Positions 14,284 through 63,329 of a DNA stretch of 64,000 nt are shown here, piece by piece. The translations under genes and the position numbers were made by a program. Position 1 is the stretch's first letter, and every line of letters starts with the position of its first letter. Under the pieces are notes generated by a model. The model saw only the letters and a program-made list of their open reading frames with translations, did no database searches and was not told the DNA's origin. Source of the stretch: Polytrichum commune (Eukaryota; Streptophyta; Polytrichopsida; Polytrichales; Polytrichaceae); the NCBI GenBank assembly GCA_950295325.1, contig OX485805.1, positions 17,843,501 through 17,907,500 of the forward strand, written 5' to 3'.

Positions 14284-14474
14284 TGATCGGGGAGAACCGG
14301 CGGTTAGTTACAGATGAACCGGTTGAGTTTGAAAAATAATCGGTTGAAGTTCAAGACTTCAGGAGAATTACCGATCACTTTAGAGGAATTCATGGAATAC
14401 ACCTCAAATTAATGTAGAAAAACCGAAGCATGTCAACATGTAACTGGTTAGACTTGCAAACACTAGGATCTCAA
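14284..14474 (+). repeat. dispersed repeat, arm 1 (inverted partner at 27699-27890)
   Basis: This ~190-bp block, rich in ACCGGTT-type motifs, matches the reverse complement of 27699-27890 at close to 90% identity by eye. Shared landmarks include GATGAACCGGTTGAGTTTGA-like, GAGAATTACCGATCA and GTCAACATGTAACTGGTTA motifs in the same order. It carries no coding capacity, and the element type is unknown. Confidence 0.7.
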
Positions 14475-14504
14475 CTGATTATACCCTAAAACCTCCCCAG
14501 TCAC

Positions 14505-27698: not shown

Positions 27699-27890
27699 GA
27701 GATTCTAGTGTTTGCAAGTCCAACCAGTTACATGTTGACTTCCTTCGGTTTTCCTATATTAATTTGAGATATATTCCATAAATTCCTCTAAAATGATCGG
27801 TAATTCTCTTGCAGTCTTGAACTTCAACCAGTTATTTCTCAAACTCAACCGGTTCATTTGTAACTAACTGTCAGTTCTCCCCAATCATTG
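27699..27890 (-). repeat. dispersed repeat, arm 2 (inverted partner at 14284-14474)
   Basis: The reverse complement of this block matches 14284-14474 at roughly 90% over its length. The two arms lie in opposite orientation on either side of the BIG gene. Confidence 0.7.
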
Positions 27891-34470: not shown

Positions 34471-34737
34471 AACACCGGTTTCGTTAAAAGTGCAATTCAA
34501 TATGTAAAAGTGCACATGAACAAATTATTGCAAATGCATAGATTTCAATGAAAATATGACCATATTATAATTGTATTGGCTATAAATTAAAAAATTATAA
34601 ATATGGGTACATTTAGTTCAATGTGCTTGGTCATTAATCAAATTACAATTTGATGATTTTTGTAAAAAGACTTGATCCTACAATAAGATGAGGAATTCAT
34701 TTTATGGGAGTGTTGTACAATTATAAAATAAAAACCA

Positions 34738-34977
34738 ATTATGGCTCCACAAGGTGTGGCATATGCCTCACCCCTATAAATCTTGAAAAAATCAATTACG
34801 GCTTCACAAGGTGAGGCATATGCCCCACCCCCTTAAAGCTTGAAAAAAAAACTAATTACTGCTTTACAAGGTGTGGCATATGACCCACCCCCTTAAAACT
34901 TGAAAAAAAAAAAACTAATTATTACTTCACAAGGTGAGGCATATGCCCCACCCCCTTAAAACTTGAACAAAAACTAA
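34738..34977. repeat. ~60-bp satellite, subfamily 1, left block (4 units)
   Basis: Four units have the core GTGAGGCATATGCCCCACCC or close variants, each followed by CTTAAAACTTGAA and CTAATTA-like spacer. The core GGCATATGCC is a perfect palindrome. The first unit is a distinct variant (GTGTGGCATATGCCTCACCC). The block is cut by the MITE at 34978 and continues at 35983. Confidence 0.9.
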
Positions 34978-35979
34978 GGGGCGGTTTACACTATGGACCA
35001 TGAAGTCGTCCCACGTAAGAGGCCTATTTTGCATGGGACGACTTCCATGGTCCGAGTTACTAAAATATTAGTTTTCATGGTTCATGGACCCTTCACTAGG
35101 TGTAAACCGAATGTGGACCATGAAGAATGACCATGCGGCAAGAAGTGGATGTGCTGATTTTTTTAATATAAGCCCAAAAAGGGCAGTTTTGGGGAAAAAT
35201 GAAGTTTGACCATTTTGTTGACTTCAATTTGCCTTCACTTATCTTGTCAATTAGGTTTTTCTTCTTTTCGCCTTAAAGTTTGATCATTCTCTTGTCATCT
35301 GTTGGGCTTCAACTGTCTTAACTTCTTGTTAAATGTGTCGAAGATGTGGCTTGCAAATCTTCTCACAACAATTTTTACAAAAAAAAATGAGCGATTCAAT
35401 TATACATGTTCAATGTAATTTACATGTGACATGTACCTTGTGTTTCACTACACTAAATAGGATATTTAGTGTTTGATTATATCTAATGTTGTTACCACCC
35501 AACCTTCCTCAACACTAAATTTCAATTCTTTGATAATTAATGTTAGAAGATTTTCCATTGCGCTTCTTTTGACCACCCTGATCTACAGTCACTAAACGAC
35601 TATGTATTTTTCTTTTTTCTTTTGCAGCTGTAGTTTTTACACATTTTGGGGCGTGTAATATACCGTTGGAAAGGTATTTTCAAGACCTTTCCAACGGTAC
35701 ATTACACGCCTCCAAATGCCAAACATTGCAGCTGGTAGACCAAAAAACAAATCTGCACTTGAATTCTTGAGTTCTAGATGTCCCGCGTTGTTTGATGAAA
35801 CATGTGTAAGTGGGTTTAAAGGGTAGGGCAAGGTAGTGCTGGTATGTCTCAACCTCTATGGTCCCTCTGCCATTTTTTCCTTAGTGTAAACCGAAGTTGT
35901 CCCGGGACAACTTCAAGAGCCAATCAGCTGCCTTGCAGAGCCCTGGTCCAACTTCATGGTCCATAGTGTAAACCGCCCC
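34978..35979. mobile_element. PIF/Harbinger-type MITE with TAA target-site duplication
   Basis: A 1002-bp element starts GGGGCGGTTTACACTATGG and ends with the reverse complement, continuing inward as ACCATGAAGT. It is flanked by TAA on both sides (34975-34977 and 35980-35982). TAA/TTA duplications and GGGxCGGTTTACACTA ends match PIF/Harbinger, and the ends resemble those of the element at 57291-58485. It sits inside the ~60-bp satellite, splitting one array. It has no transposase frame. An internal near-perfect inverted repeat lies at 35650-35710. Confidence 0.85.
35650..35710. repeat. long hairpin-forming inverted repeat inside the MITE
   Basis: The arms 35650-35675 and 35685-35710 are 26 bp with one mismatch around a 9-base loop, and weaker pairing continues several bases further out. 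A transcript would fold into a long stem suitable for small-RNA processing. Confidence 0.8.
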
Positions 35980-35982
35980 TAA

Positions 35983-36380
35983 GTATTGCTTCACAAGGTG
36001 AGGCATATGCCCCACCCCCTTAAAACTTGAACAAAAACTAAGTACTGCTTTAGAAGGTGAGGCATATGCCCCACCCCCTTAAAACTTGAACAAAAACTAA
36101 GTACTGCTTCACAAGGTGAGGCATATGCCCCACCCCCTTAAAACTTCAAAAAAAACCTAATTATTGCTTCACAAGGTGAGGCATATGCCCCACCCCCTTA
36201 AAACTTGAATAAAAACTAATTATTGCTTCACAAGGTGAGGCATATGCCCCACCCCCTTAAAACTTGAATAAAAACTAATTATTGCTTCACAAGGTGAGGC
36301 ATATGCCCCACCCCCTTAAAAGTTGAACAAAAACTAATTACGGCTCCACAAGGTGTGGCATATGCCTCACCCCTTTAAAT
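35983..36380. repeat. ~60-bp satellite, subfamily 1, right block (about 7 units)
   Basis: Cores at about 36001, 36060, 36119, 36179, 36238, 36297 and 36356 give a steady 59-60 bp period. It continues the array at 34738-34977 across the MITE insertion. The last unit carries the same GTGTGGCATATGCCTCACCC variant as the first unit of the left block. Confidence 0.9.
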
Positions 36381-36620
36381 CTTTTTTTATAATATATTAT
36401 AAAAAATTATATTTTGAAGTTATATTATAATATTTATATATTAGATTAAATATTTATAGAAATTCTATTTTATTTCCAAATAACTAAAAACAATGCTAGG
36501 TATGAGTAGAATAATGCCACCAGCCCACCTAAAAAAATTCAAGTGTAACTTCTTAAATCTGTGCATGATAGACCATTACAAAGTTTGTCTACAAATATAA
36601 AATTAAAAAATAAACGTTTA

Positions 36621-36652
36621 CCCTAAACCCTAAAACGCCGCTTAGGGTTAGG
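36621..36652 (+). promoter_or_regulatory. telo-box motif and pyrimidine-rich leader (copies at +5544 and +11088)
   Basis: CCCTAAACCCTAAA at 36621-36634 is followed by CTTAGGGTTAGG (36641-36652), two plant telomere-like motifs facing each other. About 130 bases of CTCTTCTCCACC-type pyrimidine-rich leader follow, to an ATG at 36797 immediately followed by GTACCT. Telo-box, TC-rich leader and ATG next to an intron donor is the typical start of plant translation-apparatus genes, so a captured promoter and first exon is plausible. No downstream exon of such a gene was recognised. Confidence 0.35.
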
Positions 36653-37421
36653 TCAAGTTTTTTAGCCACCGCTATTTTCCAACGCCGCTCTTCTCCACCA
36701 CCGCTCTTCTTCACCGCCGCTCTTCTCCAACACCGATCTACTTCGGCGCCTCTTACTCCTACAACTCTTACTCCAACACCCTTTTGTTTCTCTCCGATGG
36801 TACCTCTTCACTCCTTCTTCTAATTATTATTCCTCAAAAGTTCATAAGTTTTTCTAGTACTACATCATCTAACCTATTGCTGCAAATTTTTGATCATTCA
36901 GCTTTCTATCATCTTATTGCGTTCAATCCACTCTCCAATAACTCTAATGTCTTCCTTTGCAGCTCAACTAATCTTCGACTCTACTTTCAACTTATATAGG
37001 CGCTTCAACACCAACTCCTATTCAATATTCAAATACCATCATATTTTACGCTTATTTTCAACTTTATTCATAATATACTTCAATTCAACACTCCATTCAT
37101 GTAATTGTTTAACTCTTCAATTTTTGGGGATTCAGATCTAAATTTGATTTCGTTTTTTAAAACAACACAATTTATTAATTATTACAAAAGATTACATTAT
37201 ACTTAGTACATGTAGTTCATACTATGAAATTTTCGTAATAAATGCCTCATCCTCATTTTTCAAACTCTGGAATATGTGATCCTTACCCTTATATAACCCT
37301 TCAAAATCGGTATTATTCATTCGTATTGCTAAATTTTGTTTTCTTCATTCTTGATTACAAAATATTGTATCACTTCTCTTCTTCTCAAATTGAGGCACAT
37401 GTTTTGAATTTGTTTTCTTGG

Positions 37422-38462
37422 GGATGAGGCACATGCCTCACCCTCCTTGACAAATCTGAATTTCTCCTTAAGCTTGTGCTTAGAGGTGAGGCACATGCCT
37501 CACCCTTATGAAACAAAATTCTATGTTCTCAATTTGTTTTTTTTTGTGAGACACATGCCTCACCCTCCTTGAGAAATCTGAATTTCTCCTTAAGTTTGTG
37601 CTTAGAGGTGAGGCACATGCCTCACCCTTCTTGAAAAATCTGAATTTCTCATTAAGCTTGTACTTAGAGGTGAGGCACATGCCTCACCCTTATGAAACAA
37701 AATTCTATGTTTTGAATTTTTTTTTTTGGTTTGGACACATCCATCCCCCTCATTGAGAAATCTGAATATGTCCTTATGCTTGTCCTTAAAGGTGAGACAC
37801 ATGTCTCACGCTTATGAAACAAAATTCTTTGTTTTCAATTTGTTTTTTTTTTGTAAGACATATGCCTCACCCTCCTTGAGAAATTTGAATTTCTCCTTAA
37901 GCTTGTGCTTAGAGGTGAGGCACATGCCTCATCCTTATGAAACAAAATTCTATGTTTTGAATTTGTTTTTTTTTTATAAGAGACATGCTTCACCTTGTTT
38001 GAAAAATCTGAATTTCTCCTTAAGCTTATTCTTAGAGGTGAGGCACATGCCTCACCTTCCTTGAGAAATCGGAATTTCTCCTTAAACTTGTGCTTAGAAG
38101 TGAGGCACATGCCTCAGCCTTATGAAACAAATTCTAAGTTTTGGTTTTTTTTTTTTTTTGGTAAGACACATGCCTCACATTCTTTGAAAAATATGAATTT
38201 TCTCTTTAAGCTTGTGCTTAGAGGTGAGGCACATGCCTCACCCTTATGAAATAAAATTCTATGTTTTGAATTTTTTTTTCGGATGGGGACATGCCTCACC
38301 TTCTTCGAAAAATCTGAATTTCTCCTTAAGGTTGTGCTTAAAGGTGAGGCACATGCCTCACCCTTATGAAACAAAGTTCTATGTTTTGGATTTGTTTTTT
38401 TTGGGTGGGGCACATGCCTCACCCTCCTTGAGAAATCTGAATTAGAGGTGAGACACATGCTT
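37422..38462. repeat. ~60-bp satellite, subfamily 2 (about 18 units; copies at +5544 and +11088)
   Basis: About 18 cores of the type GTGAGGCACATGCCTCAC (8-bp arms around CA) recur every 59-63 bp. Two spacer types alternate, one TTATGAAACAAAATTCTATG plus a T-run, the other TTGAGAAATCTGAATTTCTC plus CTTAAGCTTGTGCTTAG, giving a ~121-bp dimeric period. The core is the same as in subfamily 1 (GAGGCATATGCC). The long open frames on both strands here (repeats like RHMPHPYETKF or EACASPLSTSL) are products of the repeat, not genes. Second and third copies lie at 42966-44006 and 48510-49550. Confidence 0.92.
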
Positions 38463-38689
38463 CATACTTAGTGAGAAAATCGATTTTTGTTGTGATTGCT
38501 TAAAACGTAATATGTTTAGAGGATATTTTTATGTCTTTAAAATGGTTTATGTGTGCTTGAATGAAATGAGGTTGGAGGTGATATCATGCGGGATAAGGGG
38601 GGTGGGCCTCTCAGGGCCCCCTTGAATAAACATTTGAATTCTTCGAATGTTTTTCATGATTATGGATGGTTTTTTACACGCGATGACAA

Positions 38690-38981
38690 GCATGTGCTGC
38701 TAAGGATTTCTACTTATCTGTGGATGGAGAACAAAGTATAGTGTTCTAAAGCATGGTCTAAAGAAGTGATTGTTTAAAAAATTATTATTCATGCCTATAC
38801 ACAAGATCTTGTTAAATACAAATATGTTGAACGAAGTTTTGGACTCAATCATGATGAAGAACTTGAAGTAAATGCTAGTATACTTGGAGCAACAGAGTTT
38901 GAAAAATATGCATTGGTACATCCAGATGTACGAAAAAATATGTTTTCTCTAGGTTTAGGTTTAGACTCTTTGGATGGTTAA
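38690..38981 (+). pseudogene. unidentified coding-like remnant (copies at 44234-44525 and 49778-50069)
   Basis: One plus-strand frame ending at a TAA at 38979-38981 reads like real protein over its last 67 codons, for example LVKYKYVERSFGLNHDEELE and TEFEKYALVHPDVRKNMFSL. It is open from 38778, and upstream in the same frame ISTYLWMENK and SKAWSKEVIV are separated by two stops. There is no ATG for the open part. I do not recognise the family. It may be a gene fragment captured by the surrounding element, or the decayed end of the element's own protein. Confidence 0.4.
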
Positions 38982-39472
38982 AACTATTTTAGTTCAGATT
39001 TGTATTTCATTATATAGATATATATAGTTTGGAAAGAAAAATGTTTGTTATATTATATATTGATATTTCAATATAAGATGACACAAGTATGTCGTTATTT
39101 TTTTTGGAACCATCAACTTCAATATTATTACTTCTATGGTGAAGCAAGTGTTGTGTCACTTAGTTTCAATTTATTTTCATGTGTTTGGTCCAAGGGTGAG
39201 GTGTATGTGTTGCACTTTTCATTAAGTTTATAAATAATTTATTTTAAGGTATGCACAAACAGATGTGTTTTATTCCTTTGATTTATTTCATAACCTAAAT
39301 TTTTTACTAAAAAAATGAAACACAGTATAAATATGATGGTCATATAGTGTATAAGCCTTGTCTTGGAATTATTTGAAACTAATAATATTTGAAAGTATTT
39401 ATGTCAAAGTATGAATTTATTGCGCAATTATTCCAAAAGTTGAAAATAAAATATTAAAAAATAATCCCCCAA

Positions 39473-39500
39473 AAAAGTGCACATGCTTATGTGCACTTTT
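39473..39500. repeat. perfect hairpin near the right terminal repeat
   Basis: Stem AAAAGTGCACAT / ATGTGCACTTTT with a GCTT loop, overlapping the inner part of the right terminal inverted repeat. It is repeated at 45017-45044 and 50561-50588 by the tandem triplication. Confidence 0.85.
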
Positions 39501-42500
39501 AACGAAACCGGTGTTACACTACAATCTAGTAGCTAAGGGTCCTATTGAAAATTGGCTTACAATATATACATTGGGGGGGGGGTCTGATTGTTTCACCTAG
39601 TTTGTACAAATCAATAGGGTGCTATGAATGTTTTTTGGGGAGTAAGAATGCTCTTTGGACTCCACAAATTAAATAACCCGAGTGTATAAATGGGTAATTT
39701 TGATGGCATTGATGTACATAATATATTTAAGGGGGAGTTATTGTTTACTGTAATATGTTGTTGTCTACAAATAAATGGCTACTGAAAATCTTAAAGTAAA
39801 GGTAGATGTACAAATCCCAATCCTAAAGTTCTTAAAAAAAATTGAGAGCATTTGTGCTTACTTTATGACTTAAAAGATTATTTGTTGGCAAATCTAGATT
39901 CTATCATTTCCCTAGCTTAAAGGATGCATGTTGCATGGTTAAATTCTCATAAGCTACATGATATGTATGGATCGATCTTTAAATTTTTCTCAAATTTGAA
40001 ATCGGAAGTGAATTGGGGATGAGGTATTTAATTTGTAAGCGAACCTTGGGTTGAGATATTTAATCTAGATGATGTTGGTTTTCAACTCCAAGAATTCGGC
40101 ACACTCCAAATCCACGTACTGCAAATCATAGGAACAAATGGGAGGGTAGAATACTTCAACGCATGCCACAGTGGGGAAGAAAATGCCAATGGGTTATACT
40201 ACAAACATATGTGTATCATGTATTTATGTATCTATATGCAAGATTGACTATGTGATGATGAACACCTTTATGTATGCAGTTGTAACTTTGAACTACAACA
40301 GGGTCATGCACATCATACCCGAATCATATAGGGTCGCAACTATTTTTGAACACTAATAGTCAATAATACATGATCATGATATGGTGTTAGTGCATTGTTG
40401 ATATATATGAGTTTTATGAACTTTCAATCTATGTAGGTAATTGTAGCTATTTTCAAGTTCCATTTACTAACATTCAAGCTACATTACTATATTCCGGCTT
40501 ATTTCTAGATCTACACATACCATATTGATAACATGGTAATAGACACCTTGACAAAATGTAGAGCATGAATTCCACGTAATAAGACTTATTTTTTCAATGT
40601 CAAATGTCCCCTTATGTTCCATATATAGCCGAACCATTCAAATCATATGAAATGTGTTCAAAAAATGAAAATGTGGAGGTGGGCCTGACTCAAATTCCGG
40701 GAGACCACGACTTTTTTTTTCTTTCCGTAAGGACATATTTCAGAACAAATTGAAGGGCAACTTCCATAACAAATTCTATGATAAACAAACACCACCAAGT
40801 AATTCTCTTAAATTCATAGAGTCTGAGACATATTATATTAAACCAAATCCTCCCCTCTTTTTCCGCCAACAAAATATGCAATGGTCCCACAACATGGCCC
40901 ATTCTCACTTCACACCACGCTCGAGGGCCCGTGACCACATAAAACGGCTTTCCCAACACCCATGGTACGGCCCTTAATGAGAGTCAAGGGTCCTCACCAT
41001 CACAAGGTCACGGGTCTTGGCTCATGTGTGAAGTGGACCAAAGTTAAGGTTAGTCTTTTGAATCCGGGCACCTTTCACTTATAAATGTGGACTGCAAGGA
41101 CTATTCATTATTTGGTGATTATATGTGGGCCAAGTTGTTCCATGTGGGGTCATTGGTTTTGAGGAGCCCATAAGTGTTTAGAAAAGTAAATAGCATCAAC
41201 CACAAGAGAGCAAAGGCAATGAGGGGTATGGAAGCTCGGAACAAGGCTTCGGAGAGTTGAAGTCACTTTGGGATGGAGGGAGTAGTATGTAAAGAAATGG
41301 ATCATTCTTTGCTTAGGGCACAAACAACGAGTAGGTACAATATGTAATGGAGCTCACTAAGGCTAAGGGTCAAGGGGAAACCGGCCTATGGGTTATGTTT
41401 GACTTTGTGGCTTTGATCAAGGTTGAAGCATTTCTCAATGTTCATGCCATCCTATCCCAAGGCAGCAACTATACCGGATAATTACATTAGGATTGCCTCG
41501 ATTATTTTCAAAGCAATGAAAATATGTAAATAATATAGATATATATGTCCAAATTATGAATTAAAATTTTACAACTTTGATAAGAGACTTCAATGCTTTT
41601 TTCTTACAATGGAAGCACAACAAATAATTGCATAAGCTTTCATTACCTTCATAGTAGTAACATTATCTTCACATAAGATACATACCTCAAGTTATAATCT
41701 ACATAATTAACAAATTAAAGTGAATAAAAAATCATAATTAAGAATTGGGATGCTTGTAATGTGGGCAGACCCCCATGTCCTCCACATGGTACGTATTTAG
41801 TTGTGATTATTGATGTGTTATTATATGCACGCATGTTTGAAATGAAAAATTATTATTTGTTATGAAAGCTCTCAGCTAACATCATAACAATCCACATGAA
41901 ATGGTGAAGTAAAATGATGCACAACAATAATTTGGTAGGATGATCTATTGTAATTCACTTTAGACTAGTTGCTACCCCAAGCATCATACAATTCTATCTA
42001 TCTATCTATTTAAGGACTAAGGACTAAGTTAGCTATGTGCTAGGTATGAGTAGAATAATGCCACCAGCCCACCTAAAAAAATTCAAGTGTAACTTCTTAA
42101 ATCTGTGCATGATAGACCATTACAAAGTTTGTCTACAAATATAAAATTAAAAAATAAACGTTTACCCTAAACCCTAAAACGCCGCTTAGGGTTAGGTCAA
42201 GTTTTTTAGCCACCGCTATTTTCCAACGCCGCTCTTCTCCACCACCGCTCTTCTTCACCGCCGCTCTTCTCCAACACCGATCTACTTCGGCGCCTCTTAC
42301 TCCTACAACTCTTACTCCAACACCCTTTTGTTTCTCTCCGATGGTACCTCTTCACTCCTTCTTCTAATTATTATTCCTCAAAAGTTCATAAGTTTTTCTA
42401 GTACTACATCATCTAACCTATTGCTGCAAATTTTTGATCATTCAGCTTTCTATCATCTTATTGCGTTCAATCCACTCTCCAATAACTCTAATGTCTTCCT

Positions 42501-45500
42501 TTGCAGCTCAACTAATCTTCGACTCTACTTTCAACTTATATAGGCGCTTCAACACCAACTCCTATTCAATATTCAAATACCATCATATTTTACGCTTATT
42601 TTCAACTTTATTCATAATATACTTCAATTCAACACTCCATTCATGTAATTGTTTAACTCTTCAATTTTTGGGGATTCAGATCTAAATTTGATTTCGTTTT
42701 TTAAAACAACACAATTTATTAATTATTACAAAAGATTACATTATACTTAGTACATGTAGTTCATACTATGAAATTTTCGTAATAAATGCCTCATCCTCAT
42801 TTTTCAAACTCTGGAATATGTGATCCTTACCCTTATATAACCCTTCAAAATCGGTATTATTCATTCGTATTGCTAAATTTTGTTTTCTTCATTCTTGATT
42901 ACAAAATATTGTATCACTTCTCTTCTTCTCAAATTGAGGCACATGTTTTGAATTTGTTTTCTTGGGGATGAGGCACATGCCTCACCCTCCTTGACAAATC
43001 TGAATTTCTCCTTAAGCTTGTGCTTAGAGGTGAGGCACATGCCTCACCCTTATGAAACAAAATTCTATGTTCTCAATTTGTTTTTTTTTGTGAGACACAT
43101 GCCTCACCCTCCTTGAGAAATCTGAATTTCTCCTTAAGTTTGTGCTTAGAGGTGAGGCACATGCCTCACCCTTCTTGAAAAATCTGAATTTCTCATTAAG
43201 CTTGTACTTAGAGGTGAGGCACATGCCTCACCCTTATGAAACAAAATTCTATGTTTTGAATTTTTTTTTTTGGTTTGGACACATCCATCCCCCTCATTGA
43301 GAAATCTGAATATGTCCTTATGCTTGTCCTTAAAGGTGAGACACATGTCTCACGCTTATGAAACAAAATTCTTTGTTTTCAATTTGTTTTTTTTTTGTAA
43401 GACATATGCCTCACCCTCCTTGAGAAATTTGAATTTCTCCTTAAGCTTGTGCTTAGAGGTGAGGCACATGCCTCATCCTTATGAAACAAAATTCTATGTT
43501 TTGAATTTGTTTTTTTTTTATAAGAGACATGCTTCACCTTGTTTGAAAAATCTGAATTTCTCCTTAAGCTTATTCTTAGAGGTGAGGCACATGCCTCACC
43601 TTCCTTGAGAAATCGGAATTTCTCCTTAAACTTGTGCTTAGAAGTGAGGCACATGCCTCAGCCTTATGAAACAAATTCTAAGTTTTGGTTTTTTTTTTTT
43701 TTTGGTAAGACACATGCCTCACATTCTTTGAAAAATATGAATTTTCTCTTTAAGCTTGTGCTTAGAGGTGAGGCACATGCCTCACCCTTATGAAATAAAA
43801 TTCTATGTTTTGAATTTTTTTTTCGGATGGGGACATGCCTCACCTTCTTCGAAAAATCTGAATTTCTCCTTAAGGTTGTGCTTAAAGGTGAGGCACATGC
43901 CTCACCCTTATGAAACAAAGTTCTATGTTTTGGATTTGTTTTTTTTGGGTGGGGCACATGCCTCACCCTCCTTGAGAAATCTGAATTAGAGGTGAGACAC
44001 ATGCTTCATACTTAGTGAGAAAATCGATTTTTGTTGTGATTGCTTAAAACGTAATATGTTTAGAGGATATTTTTATGTCTTTAAAATGGTTTATGTGTGC
44101 TTGAATGAAATGAGGTTGGAGGTGATATCATGCGGGATAAGGGGGGTGGGCCTCTCAGGGCCCCCTTGAATAAACATTTGAATTCTTCGAATGTTTTTCA
44201 TGATTATGGATGGTTTTTTACACGCGATGACAAGCATGTGCTGCTAAGGATTTCTACTTATCTGTGGATGGAGAACAAAGTATAGTGTTCTAAAGCATGG
44301 TCTAAAGAAGTGATTGTTTAAAAAATTATTATTCATGCCTATACACAAGATCTTGTTAAATACAAATATGTTGAACGAAGTTTTGGACTCAATCATGATG
44401 AAGAACTTGAAGTAAATGCTAGTATACTTGGAGCAACAGAGTTTGAAAAATATGCATTGGTACATCCAGATGTACGAAAAAATATGTTTTCTCTAGGTTT
44501 AGGTTTAGACTCTTTGGATGGTTAAAACTATTTTAGTTCAGATTTGTATTTCATTATATAGATATATATAGTTTGGAAAGAAAAATGTTTGTTATATTAT
44601 ATATTGATATTTCAATATAAGATGACACAAGTATGTCGTTATTTTTTTTGGAACCATCAACTTCAATATTATTACTTCTATGGTGAAGCAAGTGTTGTGT
44701 CACTTAGTTTCAATTTATTTTCATGTGTTTGGTCCAAGGGTGAGGTGTATGTGTTGCACTTTTCATTAAGTTTATAAATAATTTATTTTAAGGTATGCAC
44801 AAACAGATGTGTTTTATTCCTTTGATTTATTTCATAACCTAAATTTTTTACTAAAAAAATGAAACACAGTATAAATATGATGGTCATATAGTGTATAAGC
44901 CTTGTCTTGGAATTATTTGAAACTAATAATATTTGAAAGTATTTATGTCAAAGTATGAATTTATTGCGCAATTATTCCAAAAGTTGAAAATAAAATATTA
45001 AAAAATAATCCCCCAAAAAAGTGCACATGCTTATGTGCACTTTTAACGAAACCGGTGTTACACTACAATCTAGTAGCTAAGGGTCCTATTGAAAATTGGC
45101 TTACAATATATACATTGGGGGGGGGGTCTGATTGTTTCACCTAGTTTGTACAAATCAATAGGGTGCTATGAATGTTTTTTGGGGAGTAAGAATGCTCTTT
45201 GGACTCCACAAATTAAATAACCCGAGTGTATAAATGGGTAATTTTGATGGCATTGATGTACATAATATATTTAAGGGGGAGTTATTGTTTACTGTAATAT
45301 GTTGTTGTCTACAAATAAATGGCTACTGAAAATCTTAAAGTAAAGGTAGATGTACAAATCCCAATCCTAAAGTTCTTAAAAAAAATTGAGAGCATTTGTG
45401 CTTACTTTATGACTTAAAAGATTATTTGTTGGCAAATCTAGATTCTATCATTTCCCTAGCTTAAAGGATGCATGTTGCATGGTTAAATTCTCATAAGCTA

Positions 45501-48500
45501 CATGATATGTATGGATCGATCTTTAAATTTTTCTCAAATTTGAAATCGGAAGTGAATTGGGGATGAGGTATTTAATTTGTAAGCGAACCTTGGGTTGAGA
45601 TATTTAATCTAGATGATGTTGGTTTTCAACTCCAAGAATTCGGCACACTCCAAATCCACGTACTGCAAATCATAGGAACAAATGGGAGGGTAGAATACTT
45701 CAACGCATGCCACAGTGGGGAAGAAAATGCCAATGGGTTATACTACAAACATATGTGTATCATGTATTTATGTATCTATATGCAAGATTGACTATGTGAT
45801 GATGAACACCTTTATGTATGCAGTTGTAACTTTGAACTACAACAGGGTCATGCACATCATACCCGAATCATATAGGGTCGCAACTATTTTTGAACACTAA
45901 TAGTCAATAATACATGATCATGATATGGTGTTAGTGCATTGTTGATATATATGAGTTTTATGAACTTTCAATCTATGTAGGTAATTGTAGCTATTTTCAA
46001 GTTCCATTTACTAACATTCAAGCTACATTACTATATTCCGGCTTATTTCTAGATCTACACATACCATATTGATAACATGGTAATAGACACCTTGACAAAA
46101 TGTAGAGCATGAATTCCACGTAATAAGACTTATTTTTTCAATGTCAAATGTCCCCTTATGTTCCATATATAGCCGAACCATTCAAATCATATGAAATGTG
46201 TTCAAAAAATGAAAATGTGGAGGTGGGCCTGACTCAAATTCCGGGAGACCACGACTTTTTTTTTCTTTCCGTAAGGACATATTTCAGAACAAATTGAAGG
46301 GCAACTTCCATAACAAATTCTATGATAAACAAACACCACCAAGTAATTCTCTTAAATTCATAGAGTCTGAGACATATTATATTAAACCAAATCCTCCCCT
46401 CTTTTTCCGCCAACAAAATATGCAATGGTCCCACAACATGGCCCATTCTCACTTCACACCACGCTCGAGGGCCCGTGACCACATAAAACGGCTTTCCCAA
46501 CACCCATGGTACGGCCCTTAATGAGAGTCAAGGGTCCTCACCATCACAAGGTCACGGGTCTTGGCTCATGTGTGAAGTGGACCAAAGTTAAGGTTAGTCT
46601 TTTGAATCCGGGCACCTTTCACTTATAAATGTGGACTGCAAGGACTATTCATTATTTGGTGATTATATGTGGGCCAAGTTGTTCCATGTGGGGTCATTGG
46701 TTTTGAGGAGCCCATAAGTGTTTAGAAAAGTAAATAGCATCAACCACAAGAGAGCAAAGGCAATGAGGGGTATGGAAGCTCGGAACAAGGCTTCGGAGAG
46801 TTGAAGTCACTTTGGGATGGAGGGAGTAGTATGTAAAGAAATGGATCATTCTTTGCTTAGGGCACAAACAACGAGTAGGTACAATATGTAATGGAGCTCA
46901 CTAAGGCTAAGGGTCAAGGGGAAACCGGCCTATGGGTTATGTTTGACTTTGTGGCTTTGATCAAGGTTGAAGCATTTCTCAATGTTCATGCCATCCTATC
47001 CCAAGGCAGCAACTATACCGGATAATTACATTAGGATTGCCTCGATTATTTTCAAAGCAATGAAAATATGTAAATAATATAGATATATATGTCCAAATTA
47101 TGAATTAAAATTTTACAACTTTGATAAGAGACTTCAATGCTTTTTTCTTACAATGGAAGCACAACAAATAATTGCATAAGCTTTCATTACCTTCATAGTA
47201 GTAACATTATCTTCACATAAGATACATACCTCAAGTTATAATCTACATAATTAACAAATTAAAGTGAATAAAAAATCATAATTAAGAATTGGGATGCTTG
47301 TAATGTGGGCAGACCCCCATGTCCTCCACATGGTACGTATTTAGTTGTGATTATTGATGTGTTATTATATGCACGCATGTTTGAAATGAAAAATTATTAT
47401 TTGTTATGAAAGCTCTCAGCTAACATCATAACAATCCACATGAAATGGTGAAGTAAAATGATGCACAACAATAATTTGGTAGGATGATCTATTGTAATTC
47501 ACTTTAGACTAGTTGCTACCCCAAGCATCATACAATTCTATCTATCTATCTATTTAAGGACTAAGGACTAAGTTAGCTATGTGCTAGGTATGAGTAGAAT
47601 AATGCCACCAGCCCACCTAAAAAAATTCAAGTGTAACTTCTTAAATCTGTGCATGATAGACCATTACAAAGTTTGTCTACAAATATAAAATTAAAAAATA
47701 AACGTTTACCCTAAACCCTAAAACGCCGCTTAGGGTTAGGTCAAGTTTTTTAGCCACCGCTATTTTCCAACGCCGCTCTTCTCCACCACCGCTCTTCTTC
47801 ACCGCCGCTCTTCTCCAACACCGATCTACTTCGGCGCCTCTTACTCCTACAACTCTTACTCCAACACCCTTTTGTTTCTCTCCGATGGTACCTCTTCACT
47901 CCTTCTTCTAATTATTATTCCTCAAAAGTTCATAAGTTTTTCTAGTACTACATCATCTAACCTATTGCTGCAAATTTTTGATCATTCAGCTTTCTATCAT
48001 CTTATTGCGTTCAATCCACTCTCCAATAACTCTAATGTCTTCCTTTGCAGCTCAACTAATCTTCGACTCTACTTTCAACTTATATAGGCGCTTCAACACC
48101 AACTCCTATTCAATATTCAAATACCATCATATTTTACGCTTATTTTCAACTTTATTCATAATATACTTCAATTCAACACTCCATTCATGTAATTGTTTAA
48201 CTCTTCAATTTTTGGGGATTCAGATCTAAATTTGATTTCGTTTTTTAAAACAACACAATTTATTAATTATTACAAAAGATTACATTATACTTAGTACATG
48301 TAGTTCATACTATGAAATTTTCGTAATAAATGCCTCATCCTCATTTTTCAAACTCTGGAATATGTGATCCTTACCCTTATATAACCCTTCAAAATCGGTA
48401 TTATTCATTCGTATTGCTAAATTTTGTTTTCTTCATTCTTGATTACAAAATATTGTATCACTTCTCTTCTTCTCAAATTGAGGCACATGTTTTGAATTTG

Positions 48501-51500
48501 TTTTCTTGGGGATGAGGCACATGCCTCACCCTCCTTGACAAATCTGAATTTCTCCTTAAGCTTGTGCTTAGAGGTGAGGCACATGCCTCACCCTTATGAA
48601 ACAAAATTCTATGTTCTCAATTTGTTTTTTTTTGTGAGACACATGCCTCACCCTCCTTGAGAAATCTGAATTTCTCCTTAAGTTTGTGCTTAGAGGTGAG
48701 GCACATGCCTCACCCTTCTTGAAAAATCTGAATTTCTCATTAAGCTTGTACTTAGAGGTGAGGCACATGCCTCACCCTTATGAAACAAAATTCTATGTTT
48801 TGAATTTTTTTTTTTGGTTTGGACACATCCATCCCCCTCATTGAGAAATCTGAATATGTCCTTATGCTTGTCCTTAAAGGTGAGACACATGTCTCACGCT
48901 TATGAAACAAAATTCTTTGTTTTCAATTTGTTTTTTTTTTGTAAGACATATGCCTCACCCTCCTTGAGAAATTTGAATTTCTCCTTAAGCTTGTGCTTAG
49001 AGGTGAGGCACATGCCTCATCCTTATGAAACAAAATTCTATGTTTTGAATTTGTTTTTTTTTTATAAGAGACATGCTTCACCTTGTTTGAAAAATCTGAA
49101 TTTCTCCTTAAGCTTATTCTTAGAGGTGAGGCACATGCCTCACCTTCCTTGAGAAATCGGAATTTCTCCTTAAACTTGTGCTTAGAAGTGAGGCACATGC
49201 CTCAGCCTTATGAAACAAATTCTAAGTTTTGGTTTTTTTTTTTTTTTGGTAAGACACATGCCTCACATTCTTTGAAAAATATGAATTTTCTCTTTAAGCT
49301 TGTGCTTAGAGGTGAGGCACATGCCTCACCCTTATGAAATAAAATTCTATGTTTTGAATTTTTTTTTCGGATGGGGACATGCCTCACCTTCTTCGAAAAA
49401 TCTGAATTTCTCCTTAAGGTTGTGCTTAAAGGTGAGGCACATGCCTCACCCTTATGAAACAAAGTTCTATGTTTTGGATTTGTTTTTTTTGGGTGGGGCA
49501 CATGCCTCACCCTCCTTGAGAAATCTGAATTAGAGGTGAGACACATGCTTCATACTTAGTGAGAAAATCGATTTTTGTTGTGATTGCTTAAAACGTAATA
49601 TGTTTAGAGGATATTTTTATGTCTTTAAAATGGTTTATGTGTGCTTGAATGAAATGAGGTTGGAGGTGATATCATGCGGGATAAGGGGGGTGGGCCTCTC
49701 AGGGCCCCCTTGAATAAACATTTGAATTCTTCGAATGTTTTTCATGATTATGGATGGTTTTTTACACGCGATGACAAGCATGTGCTGCTAAGGATTTCTA
49801 CTTATCTGTGGATGGAGAACAAAGTATAGTGTTCTAAAGCATGGTCTAAAGAAGTGATTGTTTAAAAAATTATTATTCATGCCTATACACAAGATCTTGT
49901 TAAATACAAATATGTTGAACGAAGTTTTGGACTCAATCATGATGAAGAACTTGAAGTAAATGCTAGTATACTTGGAGCAACAGAGTTTGAAAAATATGCA
50001 TTGGTACATCCAGATGTACGAAAAAATATGTTTTCTCTAGGTTTAGGTTTAGACTCTTTGGATGGTTAAAACTATTTTAGTTCAGATTTGTATTTCATTA
50101 TATAGATATATATAGTTTGGAAAGAAAAATGTTTGTTATATTATATATTGATATTTCAATATAAGATGACACAAGTATGTCGTTATTTTTTTTGGAACCA
50201 TCAACTTCAATATTATTACTTCTATGGTGAAGCAAGTGTTGTGTCACTTAGTTTCAATTTATTTTCATGTGTTTGGTCCAAGGGTGAGGTGTATGTGTTG
50301 CACTTTTCATTAAGTTTATAAATAATTTATTTTAAGGTATGCACAAACAGATGTGTTTTATTCCTTTGATTTATTTCATAACCTAAATTTTTTACTAAAA
50401 AAATGAAACACAGTATAAATATGATGGTCATATAGTGTATAAGCCTTGTCTTGGAATTATTTGAAACTAATAATATTTGAAAGTATTTATGTCAAAGTAT
50501 GAATTTATTGCGCAATTATTCCAAAAGTTGAAAATAAAATATTAAAAAATAATCCCCCAAAAAAGTGCACATGCTTATGTGCACTTTTAACGAAACCGGT
50601 GTTACACTACAATCTAGTAGCTAAGGGTCCTATTGAAAATTGGCTTACAATATATACATTGGGGGGGGGGTCTGATTGTTTCACCTAGTTTGTACAAATC
50701 AATAGGGTGCTATGAATGTTTTTTGGGGAGTAAGAATGCTCTTTGGACTCCACAAATTAAATAACCCGAGTGTATAAATGGGTAATTTTGATGGCATTGA
50801 TGTACATAATATATTTAAGGGGGAGTTATTGTTTACTGTAATATGTTGTTGTCTACAAATAAATGGCTACTGAAAATCTTAAAGTAAAGGTAGATGTACA
50901 AATCCCAATCCTAAAGTTCTTAAAAAAAATTGAGAGCATTTGTGCTTACTTTATGACTTAAAAGATTATTTGTTGGCAAATCTAGATTCTATCATTTCCC
51001 TAGCTTAAAGGATGCATGTTGCATGGTTAAATTCTCATAAGCTACATGATATGTATGGATCGATCTTTAAATTTTTCTCAAATTTGAAATCGGAAGTGAA
51101 TTGGGGATGAGGTATTTAATTTGTAAGCGAACCTTGGGTTGAGATATTTAATCTAGATGATGTTGGTTTTCAACTCCAAGAATTCGGCACACTCCAAATC
51201 CACGTACTGCAAATCATAGGAACAAATGGGAGGGTAGAATACTTCAACGCATGCCACAGTGGGGAAGAAAATGCCAATGGGTTATACTACAAACATATGT
51301 GTATCATGTATTTATGTATCTATATGCAAGATTGACTATGTGATGATGAACACCTTTATGTATGCAGTTGTAACTTTGAACTACAACAGGGTCATGCACA
51401 TCATACCCGAATCATATAGGGTCGCAACTATTTTTGAACACTAATAGTCAATAATACATGATCATGATATGGTGTTAGTGCATTGTTGATATATATGAGT

Positions 51501-53113
51501 TTTATGAACTTTCAATCTATGTAGGTAATTGTAGCTATTTTCAAGTTCCATTTACTAACATTCAAGCTACATTACTATATTCCGGCTTATTTCTAGATCT
51601 ACACATACCATATTGATAACATGGTAATAGACACCTTGACAAAATGTAGAGCATGAATTCCACGTAATAAGACTTATTTTTTCAATGTCAAATGTCCCCT
51701 TATGTTCCATATATAGCCGAACCATTCAAATCATATGAAATGTGTTCAAAAAATGAAAATGTGGAGGTGGGCCTGACTCAAATTCCGGGAGACCACGACT
51801 TTTTTTTTCTTTCCGTAAGGACATATTTCAGAACAAATTGAAGGGCAACTTCCATAACAAATTCTATGATAAACAAACACCACCAAGTAATTCTCTTAAA
51901 TTCATAGAGTCTGAGACATATTATATTAAACCAAATCCTCCCCTCTTTTTCCGCCAACAAAATATGCAATGGTCCCACAACATGGCCCATTCTCACTTCA
52001 CACCACGCTCGAGGGCCCGTGACCGCATAAAACGGCTTTCCCAACACCCATGGTACGGCCCTTAATGAGAGTCAAGGGTCCTCACCATCACAAGGTCACG
52101 GGTCTTGGCTCATGTGTGAAGTGGACCAAAGTTAAGGTTAGTCTTTTGAATCCGGGCACCTTTCACTTATAAATGTGGACTGCAAGGACTATTCATTATT
52201 TGGTGATTATATGTGGGCCAAGTTGTTCCATGTGGGGTCATTGGTTTTGAGGAGCCCATAAGTGTTTAGAAAAGTAAATAGCATCAACCACAAGAGAGCA
52301 AAGGCAATGAGGGGTATGGAAGCTCGGAACAAGGCTTCGGAGAGTTGAAGTCACTTTGGGATGGAGGGAGTAGTATGTAAAGAAATGGATCATTCTTTGC
52401 TTAGGGCACAAACAACGAGTAGGTACAATATGTAATGGAGCTCACTAAGGCTAAGGGTCAAGGGGAAACCGGCCTATGGGTTATGTTTGACTTTGTGGCT
52501 TTGATCAAGGTTGAAGCATTTCTCAATGTTCATGCCATCCTATCCCAAGGCAGCAACTATACCGGATAATTACATTAGGATTGCCTCGATTATTTTCAAA
52601 GCAATGAAAATATGTAAATAATATAGATATATATGTCCAAATTATGAATTAAAATTTTACAACTTTGATAAGAGACTTCAATGCTTTTTTCTTACAATGG
52701 AAGCACAACAAATAATTGCATAAGCTTTCATTACCTTCATAGTAGTAACATTATCTTCACATAAGATACATACCTCAAGTTATAATCTACATAATTAACA
52801 AATTAAAGTGAATAAAAAATCATAATTAAGAATTGGGATGCTTGTAATGTGGGCAGACCCCCATGTCCTCCACATGGTACGTATTTAGTTGTGATTATTG
52901 ATGTGTTATTATATGCACGCATGTTTGAAATGAAAAATTATTATTTGTTATGAAAGCTCTCAGCTAACATCATAACAATCCACATGAAATGGTGAAGTAA
53001 AATGATGCACAACAATAATTTGGTAGGATGATCTATTGTAATTCACTTTAGACTAGTTGCTACCCCAAGCATCATACAATTCTATCTATCTATCTATTTA
53101 AGGACTAAGGACT

Positions 53114-57290: not shown

Positions 57291-58485
57291 GGGCCGGTTT
57301 ACACTACGGTGGAGAAGGCCTCCGGTTGGTCAAGAATGCTTGGCCAAGACATGGTTATATGAGGCAAATGGTGGATGTGCCGGAGAAGAATTAAAGGCAA
57401 TAAAATATTTCTTAAGGAGTCTTGACCGGTTGAAGTCTAAACACCTAGAGGAGAAGTCCACCGGAGAAGTCCACCAGTGAAGAGAAGTTCACCTAATGGT
57501 GAAGATTTTTTGTGATAAAAAACCATAATTCTCTACATTCACATTGTATCAAAAGATTTCAACAAGAATTGTGTTCATAAAAATTGTGTAATATAATGTT
57601 CAATTTTATTCAAAAGATAATGAAAATTGCCAAATTGCCAATTGTCAAGTTTGGCCCATGTAGGAAATAAATGTCTCCTTGGGTGTTTAAGAATGAAGAG
57701 GGGAAAACCCATACACATTGGACAAAGCACTACTCTTTGGTATTTTTTAAGACATGCTCTCCTCTTAATCATCCTCATCAATTTCTCTCTTCTTATCTTT
57801 GATCTTCAATCATGGATAATCGAAGAAGAGAGATTTTGTGCTCTCTTATGATCTTTATGGTTTTGAAGTATTTTTATCATTTCAACTATGGCGATACAAA
57901 AAACCATCATGTATCACCATAATGCTTCAATTTTGATGATGGCATATTTTTTGTTTGGGAGCAAGGAGAGGGTAGTACGGAAATTTGACCGGCCAAGTGG
58001 ATATGTGTCACAAATTCTTCTTGGATCATATAATGCAAAAATGTTCAAAGATCGTGTACCGGTGAGTAAGCCTACTTTTATTTATTTATGTCATTTGCTT
58101 GAACCCATATTGAGCAAGAAAGATACAAAATTAAGACTTTGTATTCCAATAGAGTGTAGAATTTCTTTGACATTGTATCGATTGGCAACCGGTGATACTT
58201 TGCATGCACTTGCCGATTTGTATGGTATTTTTTATTGAGTTGGGCTTCTCCGGCCTCTTGAGGCAGGACAAGAAACTCCTCCTCTGGAGAAGCCCAACTC
58301 CAAAAAGTGCCGCCATGTAGGCGGCCATGTCATTTTATCATCCATGAGAAAAGTTCACCACCATTGTTTTCTTCACCTAGTGTAAACACCCACCGGTCAA
58401 GAGTTGCATTTTCGACCAATCACAATTGAGAAACGCCCTTTTTTTCATGACCGGTGGACTTCTCCACCGTAGTGTAAACCGGCCC
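57291..58485 (+). mobile_element. PIF/Harbinger element, deletion derivative, with TAA target-site duplication
   Basis: A 1195-bp element has perfect 27-bp terminal inverted repeats (57291-57317 and 58459-58485), starting GGGCCGGTTTACACTACGG and ending GTGGAGAAG, flanked by TAA (57288-57290 and 58486-58488). It carries the N-terminal part of a Harbinger-type transposase but lacks the DDE catalytic domain, so it could only move with help from a complete relative. The right ~500 bp of this element was later amplified in the 1336-bp tandem array, so extra right ends without left ends occur at 59795-59821, 61131-61157 and 62467-62493. Confidence 0.9.
57811..58238 (+). pseudogene. truncated PIF/Harbinger transposase N-terminal region
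   Basis: A frame from 57811 begins MDNRRREILCSLMIF, and after a shift the frame from 57888 to 58238 (116 codons) carries the recognisable part. This includes DRPSGYVSQILLGSYNAKMF, SKPTFIYLCHLLEPIL and IPIECRISLTLYRLATGDTL, ending LADLYGIFY and a stop. The segment CIPIE-R-x-LTLYRLATGD is the conserved helix-turn-helix-like region before the DDE nuclease of plant PIF/Harbinger transposases. The sequence breaks off exactly where the catalytic domain should begin. Frame change plus truncation make it non-functional. Confidence 0.75.
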
Positions 58486-59340
58486 TAAGCATGTAAGTCT
58501 ACACAAGGTAGATTGAACATGTTAGTATGTTGTCAAGGAGAGCAATTGATGCTCAAATTACAACACAATCTAGTTATGGCACTTGGTATTTTAGCTACAA
58601 CAAAGGACAAACAACTTGCATATCACATTGCAGGTTATGAACAAACCTCACATTTTTTAGTATTGTGACATATGTATTGTTTGAACAATTTGTATTCTAA
58701 ATCACATTCCTTTTGAGCAAGACAATAATGTCTTGAAAGAGCTTGACCACACCCACCCTCCTAGGTATCTATCTTTCTTCCTTGGACATATTCCACCGTG
58801 CTTACAACAATCTTAATGGTTTGAGGTAGTGGGAGGCAAAGAGGCAACCGAGATAACAAATACTCTCACCATCTTTTGAATACATGAAATGCAAGCCCAA
58901 ACCAACCACCACCACGCCTTTGCACGCCACTTGGCGCAAGGACATGCCCCCCCCCCTTCTCCACCACCACCACCACTAATGCACATAAAGAGGTCCCACC
59001 TATTCACTCTGGAAAATGGCTCTCAATGTAGCCCATACAATGTCGCTTTGGTGTACACAACGGTGTTTAGTGAGAGTTTGGGTAACAAAGTATACATATG
59101 AAATAAGTATTGTTTGATCTATTTTTGCAAATATAAAACTCGTAATACTATGAAATACGGGGAAGACGTAAGTGTACCCTAAACCAACCCCCCCCCCCCC
59201 CTTGAAAAAAAACTAGCAAACATACAAGGTAGCTAACTTATATGAGTTCTAGTCTACCTCACAACCGCACCACTAGTCAAACTTAAGATTTAAATAAAAT
59301 TATCAAATTAGAAGTTAGCTATGACCGGCCAAGTGGATAT

Positions 59341-59574
59341 GTGTCACAAATTCTTCTTGGATCATATAATGCAAAAATGTTCAAAGATCGTGTACCGGTG
59401 AGTAAGCCTACTTTTATTTATTTATGTCATTTGCTTGAACCCATATTGAGCAAGAAAGATACAAAATTAAGACTTTGTATTCCAATAGAGTGTAGAATTT
59501 CTTTGACATTGTATCGATTGGCAACCGGTGATACTTTGCATGCACTTGCCGATTTGTATGGTATTTTTTATTGA
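59341..59574 (+). pseudogene. tandem copy of the transposase fragment
   Basis: Second-unit copy of the C-terminal 77 codons of the Harbinger fragment (MSQILLGSYNAKMF to LYGIFY), generated by the 1336-bp duplication. Confidence 0.7.
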
Positions 59575-60676
59575 GTTGGGCTTCTCCGGCCTCTTGAGGC
59601 AGGACAAGAAACTCCTCCTCTGGAGAAGCCCAACTCCAAAAAGTGCCGCCATGTAGGCGGCCATGTCATTTTATCATCCATGAGAAAAGTTCACCACCAT
59701 TGTTTTCTTCACCTAGTGTAAACACCCACCGGTCAAGAGTTGCATTTTCGACCAATCACAATTGAGAAACGCCCTTTTTTTCATGACCGGTGGACTTCTC
59801 CACCGTAGTGTAAACCGGCCCTAAGCATGTAAGTCTACACAAGGTAGATTGAACATGTTAGTATGTTGTCAAGGAGAGCAATTGATGCTCAAATTACAAC
59901 ACAATCTAGTTATGGCACTTGGTATTTTAGCTACAACAAAGGACAAACAACTTGCATATCACATTGCAGGTTATGAACAAACCTCACATTTTTTAGTATT
60001 GTGACATATGTATTGTTTGAACAATTTGTATTCTAAATCACATTCCTTTTGAGCAAGACAATAATGTCTTGAAAGAGCTTGACCACACCCACCCTCCTAG
60101 GTATCTATCTTTCTTCCTTGGACATATTCCACCGTGCTTACAACAATCTTAATGGTTTGAGGTAGTGGGAGGCAAAGAGGCAACCGAGATAACAAATACT
60201 CTCACCATCTTTTGAATACATGAAATGCAAGCCCAAACCAACCACCACCACGCCTTTGCACGCCACTTGGCGCAAGGACATGCCCCCCCCCCTTCTCCAC
60301 CACCACCACCACTAATGCACATAAAGAGGTCCCACCTATTCACTCTGGAAAATGGCTCTCAATGTAGCCCATACAATGTCGCTTTGGTGTACACAACGGT
60401 GTTTAGTGAGAGTTTGGGTAACAAAGTATACATATGAAATAAGTATTGTTTGATCTATTTTTGCAAATATAAAACTCGTAATACTATGAAATACGGGGAA
60501 GACGTAAGTGTACCCTAAACCAACCCCCCCCCCCCCCTTGAAAAAAAACTAGCAAACATACAAGGTAGCTAACTTATATGAGTTCTAGTCTACCTCACAA
60601 CCGCACCACTAGTCAAACTTAAGATTTAAATAAAATTATCAAATTAGAAGTTAGCTATGACCGGCCAAGTGGATAT

Positions 60677-60910
60677 GTGTCACAAATTCTTCTTGGATCA
60701 TATAATGCAAAAATGTTCAAAGATCGTGTACCGGTGAGTAAGCCTACTTTTATTTATTTATGTCATTTGCTTGAACCCATATTGAGCAAGAAAGATACAA
60801 AATTAAGACTTTGTATTCCAATAGAGTGTAGAATTTCTTTGACATTGTATCGATTGGCAACCGGTGATACTTTGCATGCACTTGCCGATTTGTATGGTAT
60901 TTTTTATTGA
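60677..60910 (+). pseudogene. tandem copy of the transposase fragment
   Basis: Third-unit copy, identical in translation to the second. Confidence 0.7.
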
Positions 60911-62012
60911 GTTGGGCTTCTCCGGCCTCTTGAGGCAGGACAAGAAACTCCTCCTCTGGAGAAGCCCAACTCCAAAAAGTGCCGCCATGTAGGCGGCCAT
61001 GTCATTTTATCATCCATGAGAAAAGTTCACCACCATTGTTTTCTTCACCTAGTGTAAACACCCACCGGTCAAGAGTTGCATTTTCGACCAATCACAATTG
61101 AGAAACGCCCTTTTTTTCATGACCGGTGGACTTCTCCACCGTAGTGTAAACCGGCCCTAAGCATGTAAGTCTACACAAGGTAGATTGAACATGTTAGTAT
61201 GTTGTCAAGGAGAGCAATTGATGCTCAAATTACAACACAATCTAGTTATGGCACTTGGTATTTTAGCTACAACAAAGGACAAACAACTTGCATATCACAT
61301 TGCAGGTTATGAACAAACCTCACATTTTTTAGTATTGTGACATATGTATTGTTTGAACAATTTGTATTCTAAATCACATTCCTTTTGAGCAAGACAATAA
61401 TGTCTTGAAAGAGCTTGACCACACCCACCCTCCTAGGTATCTATCTTTCTTCCTTGGACATATTCCACCGTGCTTACAACAATCTTAATGGTTTGAGGTA
61501 GTGGGAGGCAAAGAGGCAACCGAGATAACAAATACTCTCACCATCTTTTGAATACATGAAATGCAAGCCCAAACCAACCACCACCACGCCTTTGCACGCC
61601 ACTTGGCGCAAGGACATGCCCCCCCCCCTTCTCCACCACCACCACCACTAATGCACATAAAGAGGTCCCACCTATTCACTCTGGAAAATGGCTCTCAATG
61701 TAGCCCATACAATGTCGCTTTGGTGTACACAACGGTGTTTAGTGAGAGTTTGGGTAACAAAGTATACATATGAAATAAGTATTGTTTGATCTATTTTTGC
61801 AAATATAAAACTCGTAATACTATGAAATACGGGGAAGACGTAAGTGTACCCTAAACCAACCCCCCCCCCCCCCTTGAAAAAAAACTAGCAAACATACAAG
61901 GTAGCTAACTTATATGAGTTCTAGTCTACCTCACAACCGCACCACTAGTCAAACTTAAGATTTAAATAAAATTATCAAATTAGAAGTTAGCTATGACCGG
62001 CCAAGTGGATAT

Positions 62013-62246
62013 GTGTCACAAATTCTTCTTGGATCATATAATGCAAAAATGTTCAAAGATCGTGTACCGGTGAGTAAGCCTACTTTTATTTATTTATGTC
62101 ATTTGCTTGAACCCATATTGAGCAAGAAAGATACAAAATTAAGACTTTGTATTCCAATAGAGTGTAGAATTTCTTTGACATTGTATCGATTGGCAACCGG
62201 TGATACTTTGCATGCACTTGCCGATTTGTATGGTATTTTTTATTGA
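62013..62246 (+). pseudogene. tandem copy of the transposase fragment
   Basis: Fourth-unit copy, identical in translation to the second. Confidence 0.7.
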
Positions 62247-63329
62247 GTTGGGCTTCTCCGGCCTCTTGAGGCAGGACAAGAAACTCCTCCTCTGGAGAAG
62301 CCCAACTCCAAAAAGTGCCGCCATGTAGGCGGCCATGTCATTTTATCATCCATGAGAAAAGTTCACCACCATTGTTTTCTTCACCTAGTGTAAACACCCA
62401 CCGGTCAAGAGTTGCATTTTCGACCAATCACAATTGAGAAACGCCCTTTTTTTCATGACCGGTGGACTTCTCCACCGTAGTGTAAACCGGCCCTAAGCAT
62501 GTAAGTCTACACAAGGTAGATTGAACATGTTAGTATGTTGTCAAGGAGAGCAATTGATGCTCAAATTACAACACAATCTAGTTATGGCACTTGGTATTTT
62601 AGCTACAACAAAGGACAAACAACTTGCATATCACATTGCAGGTTATGAACAAACCTCACATTTTTTAGTATTGTGACATATGTATTGTTTGAACAATTTG
62701 TATTCTAAATCACATTCCTTTTGAGCAAGACAATAATGTCTTGAAAGAGCTTGACCACACCCACCCTCCTAGGTATCTATCTTTCTTCCTTGGACATATT
62801 CCACCGTGCTTACAACAATCTTAATGGTTTGAGGTAGTGGGAGGCAAAGAGGCAACCGAGATAACAAATACTCTCACCATCTTTTGAATACATGAAATGC
62901 AAGCCCAAACCAACCACCACCACGCCTTTGCACGCCACTTGGCGCAAGGACATGCCCCCCCCCCTTCTCCACCACCACCACCACTAATGCACATAAAGAG
63001 GTCCCACCTATTCACTCTGGAAAATGGCTCTCAATGTAGCCCATACAATGTCGCTTTGGTGTACACAACGGTGTTTAGTGAGAGTTTGGGTAACAAAGTA
63101 TACATATGAAATAAGTATTGTTTGATCTATTTTTGCAAATATAAAACTCGTAATACTATGAAATACGGGGAAGACGTAAGTGTACCCTAAACCAACCCCC
63201 CCCCCCCCCTTGAAAAAAAACTAGCAAACATACAAGGTAGCTAACTTATATGAGTTCTAGTCTACCTCACAACCGCACCACTAGTCAAACTTAAGATTTA
63301 AATAAAATTATCAAATTAGAAGTTAGCTA

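Follow-up and report, generated by a model that had tools for sequence, protein, structure and literature searches.

The 64,000-nucleotide (nt) window analysed here (C3:17843501-17907500 of the Polytrichum commune assembly) carries two tandem duplications, arrays A and B, which probably arose in one linked break-repair episode. What ties them together is a 12-mer, AAGTTAGCTATG, present at all five inner junctions of these two unrelated arrays: in array A it is an inserted filler, and in array B it is formed where the ends of neighbouring units meet. Judged from their sequence, both arrays are very likely real and of natural origin. The initial annotation of this stretch had rightly recognised the amplified DNA of array A but had missed the 12-nt filler and array B, both of which change the meaning of the finding. 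Genome-wide searches covered the whole assembly (407,808,757 bases in 64 contigs), and the local neighbourhood was taken as 264 kb, that is, the window with 200 kb around the locus.

Array A consists of three near-identical head-to-tail copies within 36494-53113 with a period of 5544 bp, as first described. Self-alignment of the window at an offset of 5544 shows 36494-47569 to be identical to 42038-53113 save at one position, 46481 versus 52025. The substitution noticed earlier at 52025 was also recovered in a copy-by-copy comparison over 5532 bp per copy, which gave no difference between copies 1 and 2 and one difference between each of these and copy 3. The site reads CA in copies 1 and 2 (GACCACAT) and CG in copy 3 (GACCGCAT). 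Exact repeats of such size are far beyond chance. Copy 3 ends at 53113, 12 bases before a full 5544, and is followed by CAAACACC. The chromosomal unit is therefore 5532 bp long and AAGTTAGCTATG is a junction filler, inserted only at the two inner junctions and missing at the right edge (53113/53114). Both junctions were found in the assembly nowhere but here, with up to three mismatches allowed. The segment 39600-42025 of the unit has three full-length copies in the assembly, all inside the window, besides 42 other rows of matches. The unit does join the right half of a transposon to flanking DNA, as annotated: the element spans 34471-39515 and its right end recurs elsewhere in the genome. About 1 kb of this "flank" (39600-40671) is itself a dispersed repeat with 72-83% identity at other places. 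Pfam detected no family in any of the 12 scanned reading-frame pieces of unit A, a plasmid search with the unit gave no match, and Rfam gave nothing across the window at gathering scores. A telomere-like stretch, CCCTAAACCCTAAA and then TTAGGGTTAGG, lies at 36620-36653, 126 bp inside the left edge of the unit.

Array B (57986-63329), 4.9 kb downstream of array A, comprises four copies of a 1336-bp unit with no differences between them. Self-comparison of the window found no similarity between unit A and unit B. The inner junctions of array B read AAGTTAGCTA/TGACCGG, while its outer edges read AAATT/TGACCGG on the left and AAGTTAGCTA/ACTC on the right. These junctions are thus direct joins of the unit's own two ends, without filler. 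A 23-mer spanning the junction has three sites genome-wide, all in array B (up to three mismatches). The C-runs of the unit (10 C at 58947-58956 and 14 C at 59188-59201) have equal length in all four copies. Positions 244-504 of the unit (58229-58489) correspond to a short Harbinger-like family that looks very young in this genome, as 25 of 70 rows of genome matches fall on this part with 98-100% identity.

Features of arrays A and B and of their host elements (window positions).
Feature	Position	Strand	Remarks
Transposon, 5045 bp	34471..39515		Inverted ends AACACCGGTTTCGTTAAAAGTGCA, flanked by ACAC on each side; subterminal repeats in tandem
AT tract, 110 bp, 92% A+T	36384..36493		Ends at left boundary of array A
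Array A copy 1	36494..42025	+	5532 bp of chromosomal sequence
Junction filler AAGTTAGCTATG, 12 nt	42026..42037	+	Between copies 1 and 2
Array A copy 2	42038..47569	+	Self-comparison
Junction filler AAGTTAGCTATG, 12 nt	47570..47581	+	Between copies 2 and 3
Array A copy 3	47582..53113	+	Carries single substitution at 52025
Harbinger-like element	57291..58485	+	Inverted ends GGGCCGGTTTACACTACGG, flanked by TAA on each side; unit B begins within
Array B copy 1	57986..59321	+	1336 bp
Array B copy 2	59322..60657	+	1336 bp
Array B copy 3	60658..61993	+	1336 bp
Array B copy 4	61994..63329	+	1336 bp
B-B junction 12-mer AAGTTAGCTATG	59312..59323, 60648-60659, 61984-61995	+	10 nt of right end and 2 nt of left start
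AAGTTAGCTA, right end of unit B	63320..63329	+	Followed by flank ACTC; right arm of 10-bp inverted repeat

The filler of array A was examined as a templated insertion, and it matches the B-B junction at 12 of 12 positions. Within the 264 kb, AAGTTAGCTATG has five sites, all at junctions of array A or array B, and these two are the only direct tandem arrays found there (unit of at least 250 bp, identity of at least 97%). Genome-wide it has 58 sites (33 forward, 25 reverse), five of them in the window; among the 53 others the smallest gap is 263,831 bp, and no array-like spacing was seen. For this reason we rejected a recurrent adapter, linker or recombination site. Carry-over of an adapter or vector was likewise rejected, since unit A had no plasmid match and AAGTTAGCTATG, searched on both strands, was not found as an adapter in the literature, where only microbial papers matched and subscription papers were not covered. 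The probability that a random 12-nt filler equals the 12-mer across the B-B junction on either strand, with dinucleotide composition matched, is 7.7e-7; it is at most 5e-5 if any 10-mer touching the four breakpoint sides of B or spanning its junction is allowed. Only this position of the match, on the B junction, is far from chance. A candidate second origin combines TAAGTTAGCTA at 59230 (-) with TATGTGCTAGGT at 55190 (+). Tiling by two matches, each of at least 11 nt, was obtained for 291 of 3000 random fillers with A's ends and for 330 of 3000 random junctions. Two native stretches were thus rejected as the sole explanation of the filler, because about 10% of random fillers tile too.

Three of the four outer boundaries, namely A left, B left and B right, are native and lie inside transposon-like repeats. 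The left boundary of array A (36493/36494) is aligned across in one piece by seven of eight relatives, L004 being the exception, so that the left flank and copy 1 stand in their original order. These eight are the best of at least 62 places matching unit A; those listed lie at query positions up to 3037, and the window's own copies are not among them. Unit A begins within the 5045-bp transposon, and the tract that ends at its left boundary ranks second in A+T content among the 48795 110-bp windows of the one-copy sequence. The subterminal tandem repeats of this transposon include the palindrome GTGAGGCACATGCCTCAC. At 37399-38443 and 34726-36383 they form units of about 59-63 bp on palindrome-like cores, and both blocks belong to the one transposon. 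Nested in them is a 1002-bp element (34978-35979) that ends in GGGGCGGTTTACACTATGGACCATGAAGT, is flanked by TAA on each side and was judged by eye to be Harbinger-like.

All six relatives align across the left boundary of array B (57985/57986), inside an element that we take to be of the Harbinger family and for which Pfam gave no match. The right boundary of array B (63329/63330) is crossed by 38 of the 58 rows from outside the window (62 rows, four of them the window's own); 37 of the 38 keep at least 36 bases left of 63329, and their identity is 70-76%. As this boundary is native, 10 of the 12 bases of AAGTTAGCTATG represent an original chromosomal end. The boundary is contained in a dispersed repeat that extends from 63219 to about 63900 and is present at many places with 70-76% identity. 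Many alignments start at 63219-63222, so unit B ends about 110 bp inside this other dispersed repeat. We also considered whether a third transposon might begin near 63222 and have AAGTTAGCTA as an inverted end, but dropped this idea, inverted matches between 63180-63400 and 63700-67000 being 10 bp or shorter. The right boundary also coincides with the outer limit of a 10-bp inverted repeat, whose left arm is at 63238-63247, and it cuts a 12-bp palindrome, AGTTAGCTAACT, at 63321-63332. Edges of 10-bp inverted-repeat arms fall at 174 of 48304 positions (93 if non-extendable) and the window holds 55 palindromes of at least 12 bp; their coincidence with the right edge of B is therefore only suggestive.

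In the episode that we propose, a broken end at each unit would have been extended on the sister chromatid, by 5.5 kb for A and 1.3 kb for B. The extended end would then have let go and joined the other end of the break, giving a head-to-tail copy. The route may have been failed synthesis-dependent strand annealing followed by polymerase-theta-type end joining, or a similar template-switching replication such as microhomology-mediated break-induced replication (MMBIR). We would place the break for A where the 92% A+T tract inside the transposon ends, and the extended strand for B would have halted in the palindrome at AAGTTAGCTA. A's end may have paired briefly with B's end, or with the new junction, and copied 10-12 nt, which would have left the filler in A. 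The exit from this copying may have used 8 nt via TATGTGCTAGGT at 55190, although such tilings occur in about 10% of random fillers. More than two copies call for unequal exchange at a later stage, and such exchange between sisters would have raised the copy number to three in A and four in B. The head-to-tail order, the near-identity in place and the native flanks at three of the four outer boundaries all speak for this reading. Its most specific form, in which a single repair episode in a plant germline gave two multi-copy arrays and one unit's broken end primed on the end of the other, leaving its scar there, is put forward tentatively, with slightly more doubt than confidence. Two related candidates were set aside. 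Fold-back at the 10-bp inverted repeat of B was dropped, as hairpin copying would add CC after AAGTTAGCTA and the junctions have TG. Chromoanasynthesis was not adopted, just two near-identical direct arrays having been found in the 264 kb by a scan of direct arrays, not of inverted pieces.

Several observations weigh against a linked episode. For A's end (GGACT) to prime on that of B, a microhomology of 0-1 nt would have been available, which fits poorly with both polymerase theta and MMBIR. The B junction has neither microhomology nor filler, and plain end joining gives the same result. The hairpin at the right end of B folds just modestly better than its shuffles, with a fold z of -1.45 and 22 of 200 shuffles as good. 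Across the genome AAGTTAGCTATG has roughly double the number of sites of its reversed control (58 versus 26), and AAGTTAGCTA also occurs at two places in the 264 kb outside the arrays; a different donor of the filler is thus possible. Matches of at least 12 nt in the one-copy window were found for 444 of 3000 random fillers with A's own ends and for 568 of 3000 random junctions, so that a single 12-nt match is expected in 15-19% of cases. Finally, both arrays are seen in assembled sequence.

The near-identity of the copies would be expected if the true copies were fewer and the assembler had looped through chimeric or circular molecules at one or both loci. Adapter-driven errors are possible in HiFi assemblies, according to one report (PMC8864876). 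Such an error is nevertheless improbable in our judgement. Copies 1 and 2 of array A differ from copy 3, ten of the 12 bases of AAGTTAGCTATG are native at a B right end whose boundary is crossed by relatives, and a loop leaves unexplained why the filler in A equals the B junction. The literature, subscription papers apart, and the genome-wide spacing of AAGTTAGCTATG give no sign of an adapter either. Passage through circles, in which the units were circularised, multiplied and put back, or were the product of a rolling circle, is consistent with head-to-tail order and identity. It would require re-entry at the original site, because both units stand at their native left flanks inside transposon copies; moreover, the scanned pieces of unit A contain no Pfam family, and the rest of the assembly has no site of either junction, even with three mismatches allowed. 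We regard circular intermediates as very improbable indeed.

A more serious competitor is a pair of independent tandem duplications made at different times, with A later copying its filler from the nearby B junction. The filler matches 12 nt of the finished B-B junction, a template that would require B to have been duplicated before; each array is recent on its own; and in Arabidopsis fillers are known that were copied from nearby donors (PMC10923293). However, the last two matched bases, TG, are worth only about 1/16, so that a finished junction is not needed as the template, and A and B, 4.9 kb apart, are the sole near-identical arrays found in the 264 kb. Two independent events are unlikely, yet they deserve real weight. 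Of the three origins named in the initial annotation (recent tandem amplification, a reinserted circular molecule or an assembly error), the first is the best supported: copy 3 is not identical to the other two, array A has a native boundary on its left side, and its filler matches the junction of a second, unrelated array; nothing requires a circle.

Stepwise growth of array A is consistent with the single base that sets copy 3 apart from copies 1 and 2. CG usually decays to CA. The CG of copy 3 would then be ancestral and copies 1 and 2 would share a derived base, a direction of change from which growth by steps may be deduced. With a plant mutation rate of 7e-9 per site per generation, the split between copies 1 and 3 would date back about 13,000 generations (upper 95% limit about 72,000), an estimate that could be too young through exchange between copies.

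Elsewhere in the window, a BIG-type ARF guanine-nucleotide exchange gene lies at 17347-25323 (+), with DCB, Sec7 and Mon2_C matches that fall in different open frames. It is flanked by a 216-bp inverted repeat (88%) at 14283-14498 and 27673-27888. A tandem array of greater age (432-bp unit, 90% identity) lies 51 kb to the right of the window end (L039 1492-5047; C3:17958992 on).

Kilobase tandem duplications supply gene copies, and as a rule the traces of their origin are lost. At this locus the junctions are still nearly fresh, and a traceable 12-nt insertion ties two neighbouring duplications. If the proposed link is true, fillers at junctions keep a record of the chromosomal ends that were open at the same time, and shared fillers across plant genomes could reveal tandem duplications that were born together. 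Fillers common to neighbouring arrays would be a simple test of whether tandem duplications arise in bursts. No description of neighbouring arrays with a common filler was found among the literature matches listed, which is not proof that there is none.

In C. elegans without HELQ-1, polymerase theta joins ends that were extended on the sister, which gives tandem duplications of about 100 bp to 10 kb, occasionally with templated insertions; the same paper states that plants lack HELQ and that their insertions are mostly templated and often patchwork (PMC8654963). The arrays described here resemble these duplications in their head-to-tail order, their size range and the templated insertion at a junction. 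They differ in consisting of two adjacent units, in three and four copies, with a filler common to both loci. The enzyme at the present locus is proposed from sequence. In Arabidopsis, fillers are described as telltales of temporary contact between two molecules and often come from nearby donors (PMC10923293). The filler of array A, like the fillers or shards at break-repair and T-DNA junctions, would be a short copy of a nearby reactive end. The donors and partners there are T-DNA and Cas9 breaks, while the two partners at this locus are tandem duplications of the chromosome. Chromoanagenesis in Populus shares clustered copy-number gains and short insertions at some junctions (1-18 bp in Populus), but there two lines carry 21 and 11 copy-number changes (10 kb-5.7 Mb in the first), with inverted pieces (PMC8423247), in contrast to the two small direct arrays of this locus. 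As in MMBIR, a short insert, probably copied from elsewhere, is found at a replication-type junction; however, 80% of the junctions counted there have 2-12 bp of microhomology (PMC8421209), compared with 0-1 nt at entry here. Thus tandem duplication with a templated filler is a known kind of event, and it is the linkage of two arrays that is unusual.

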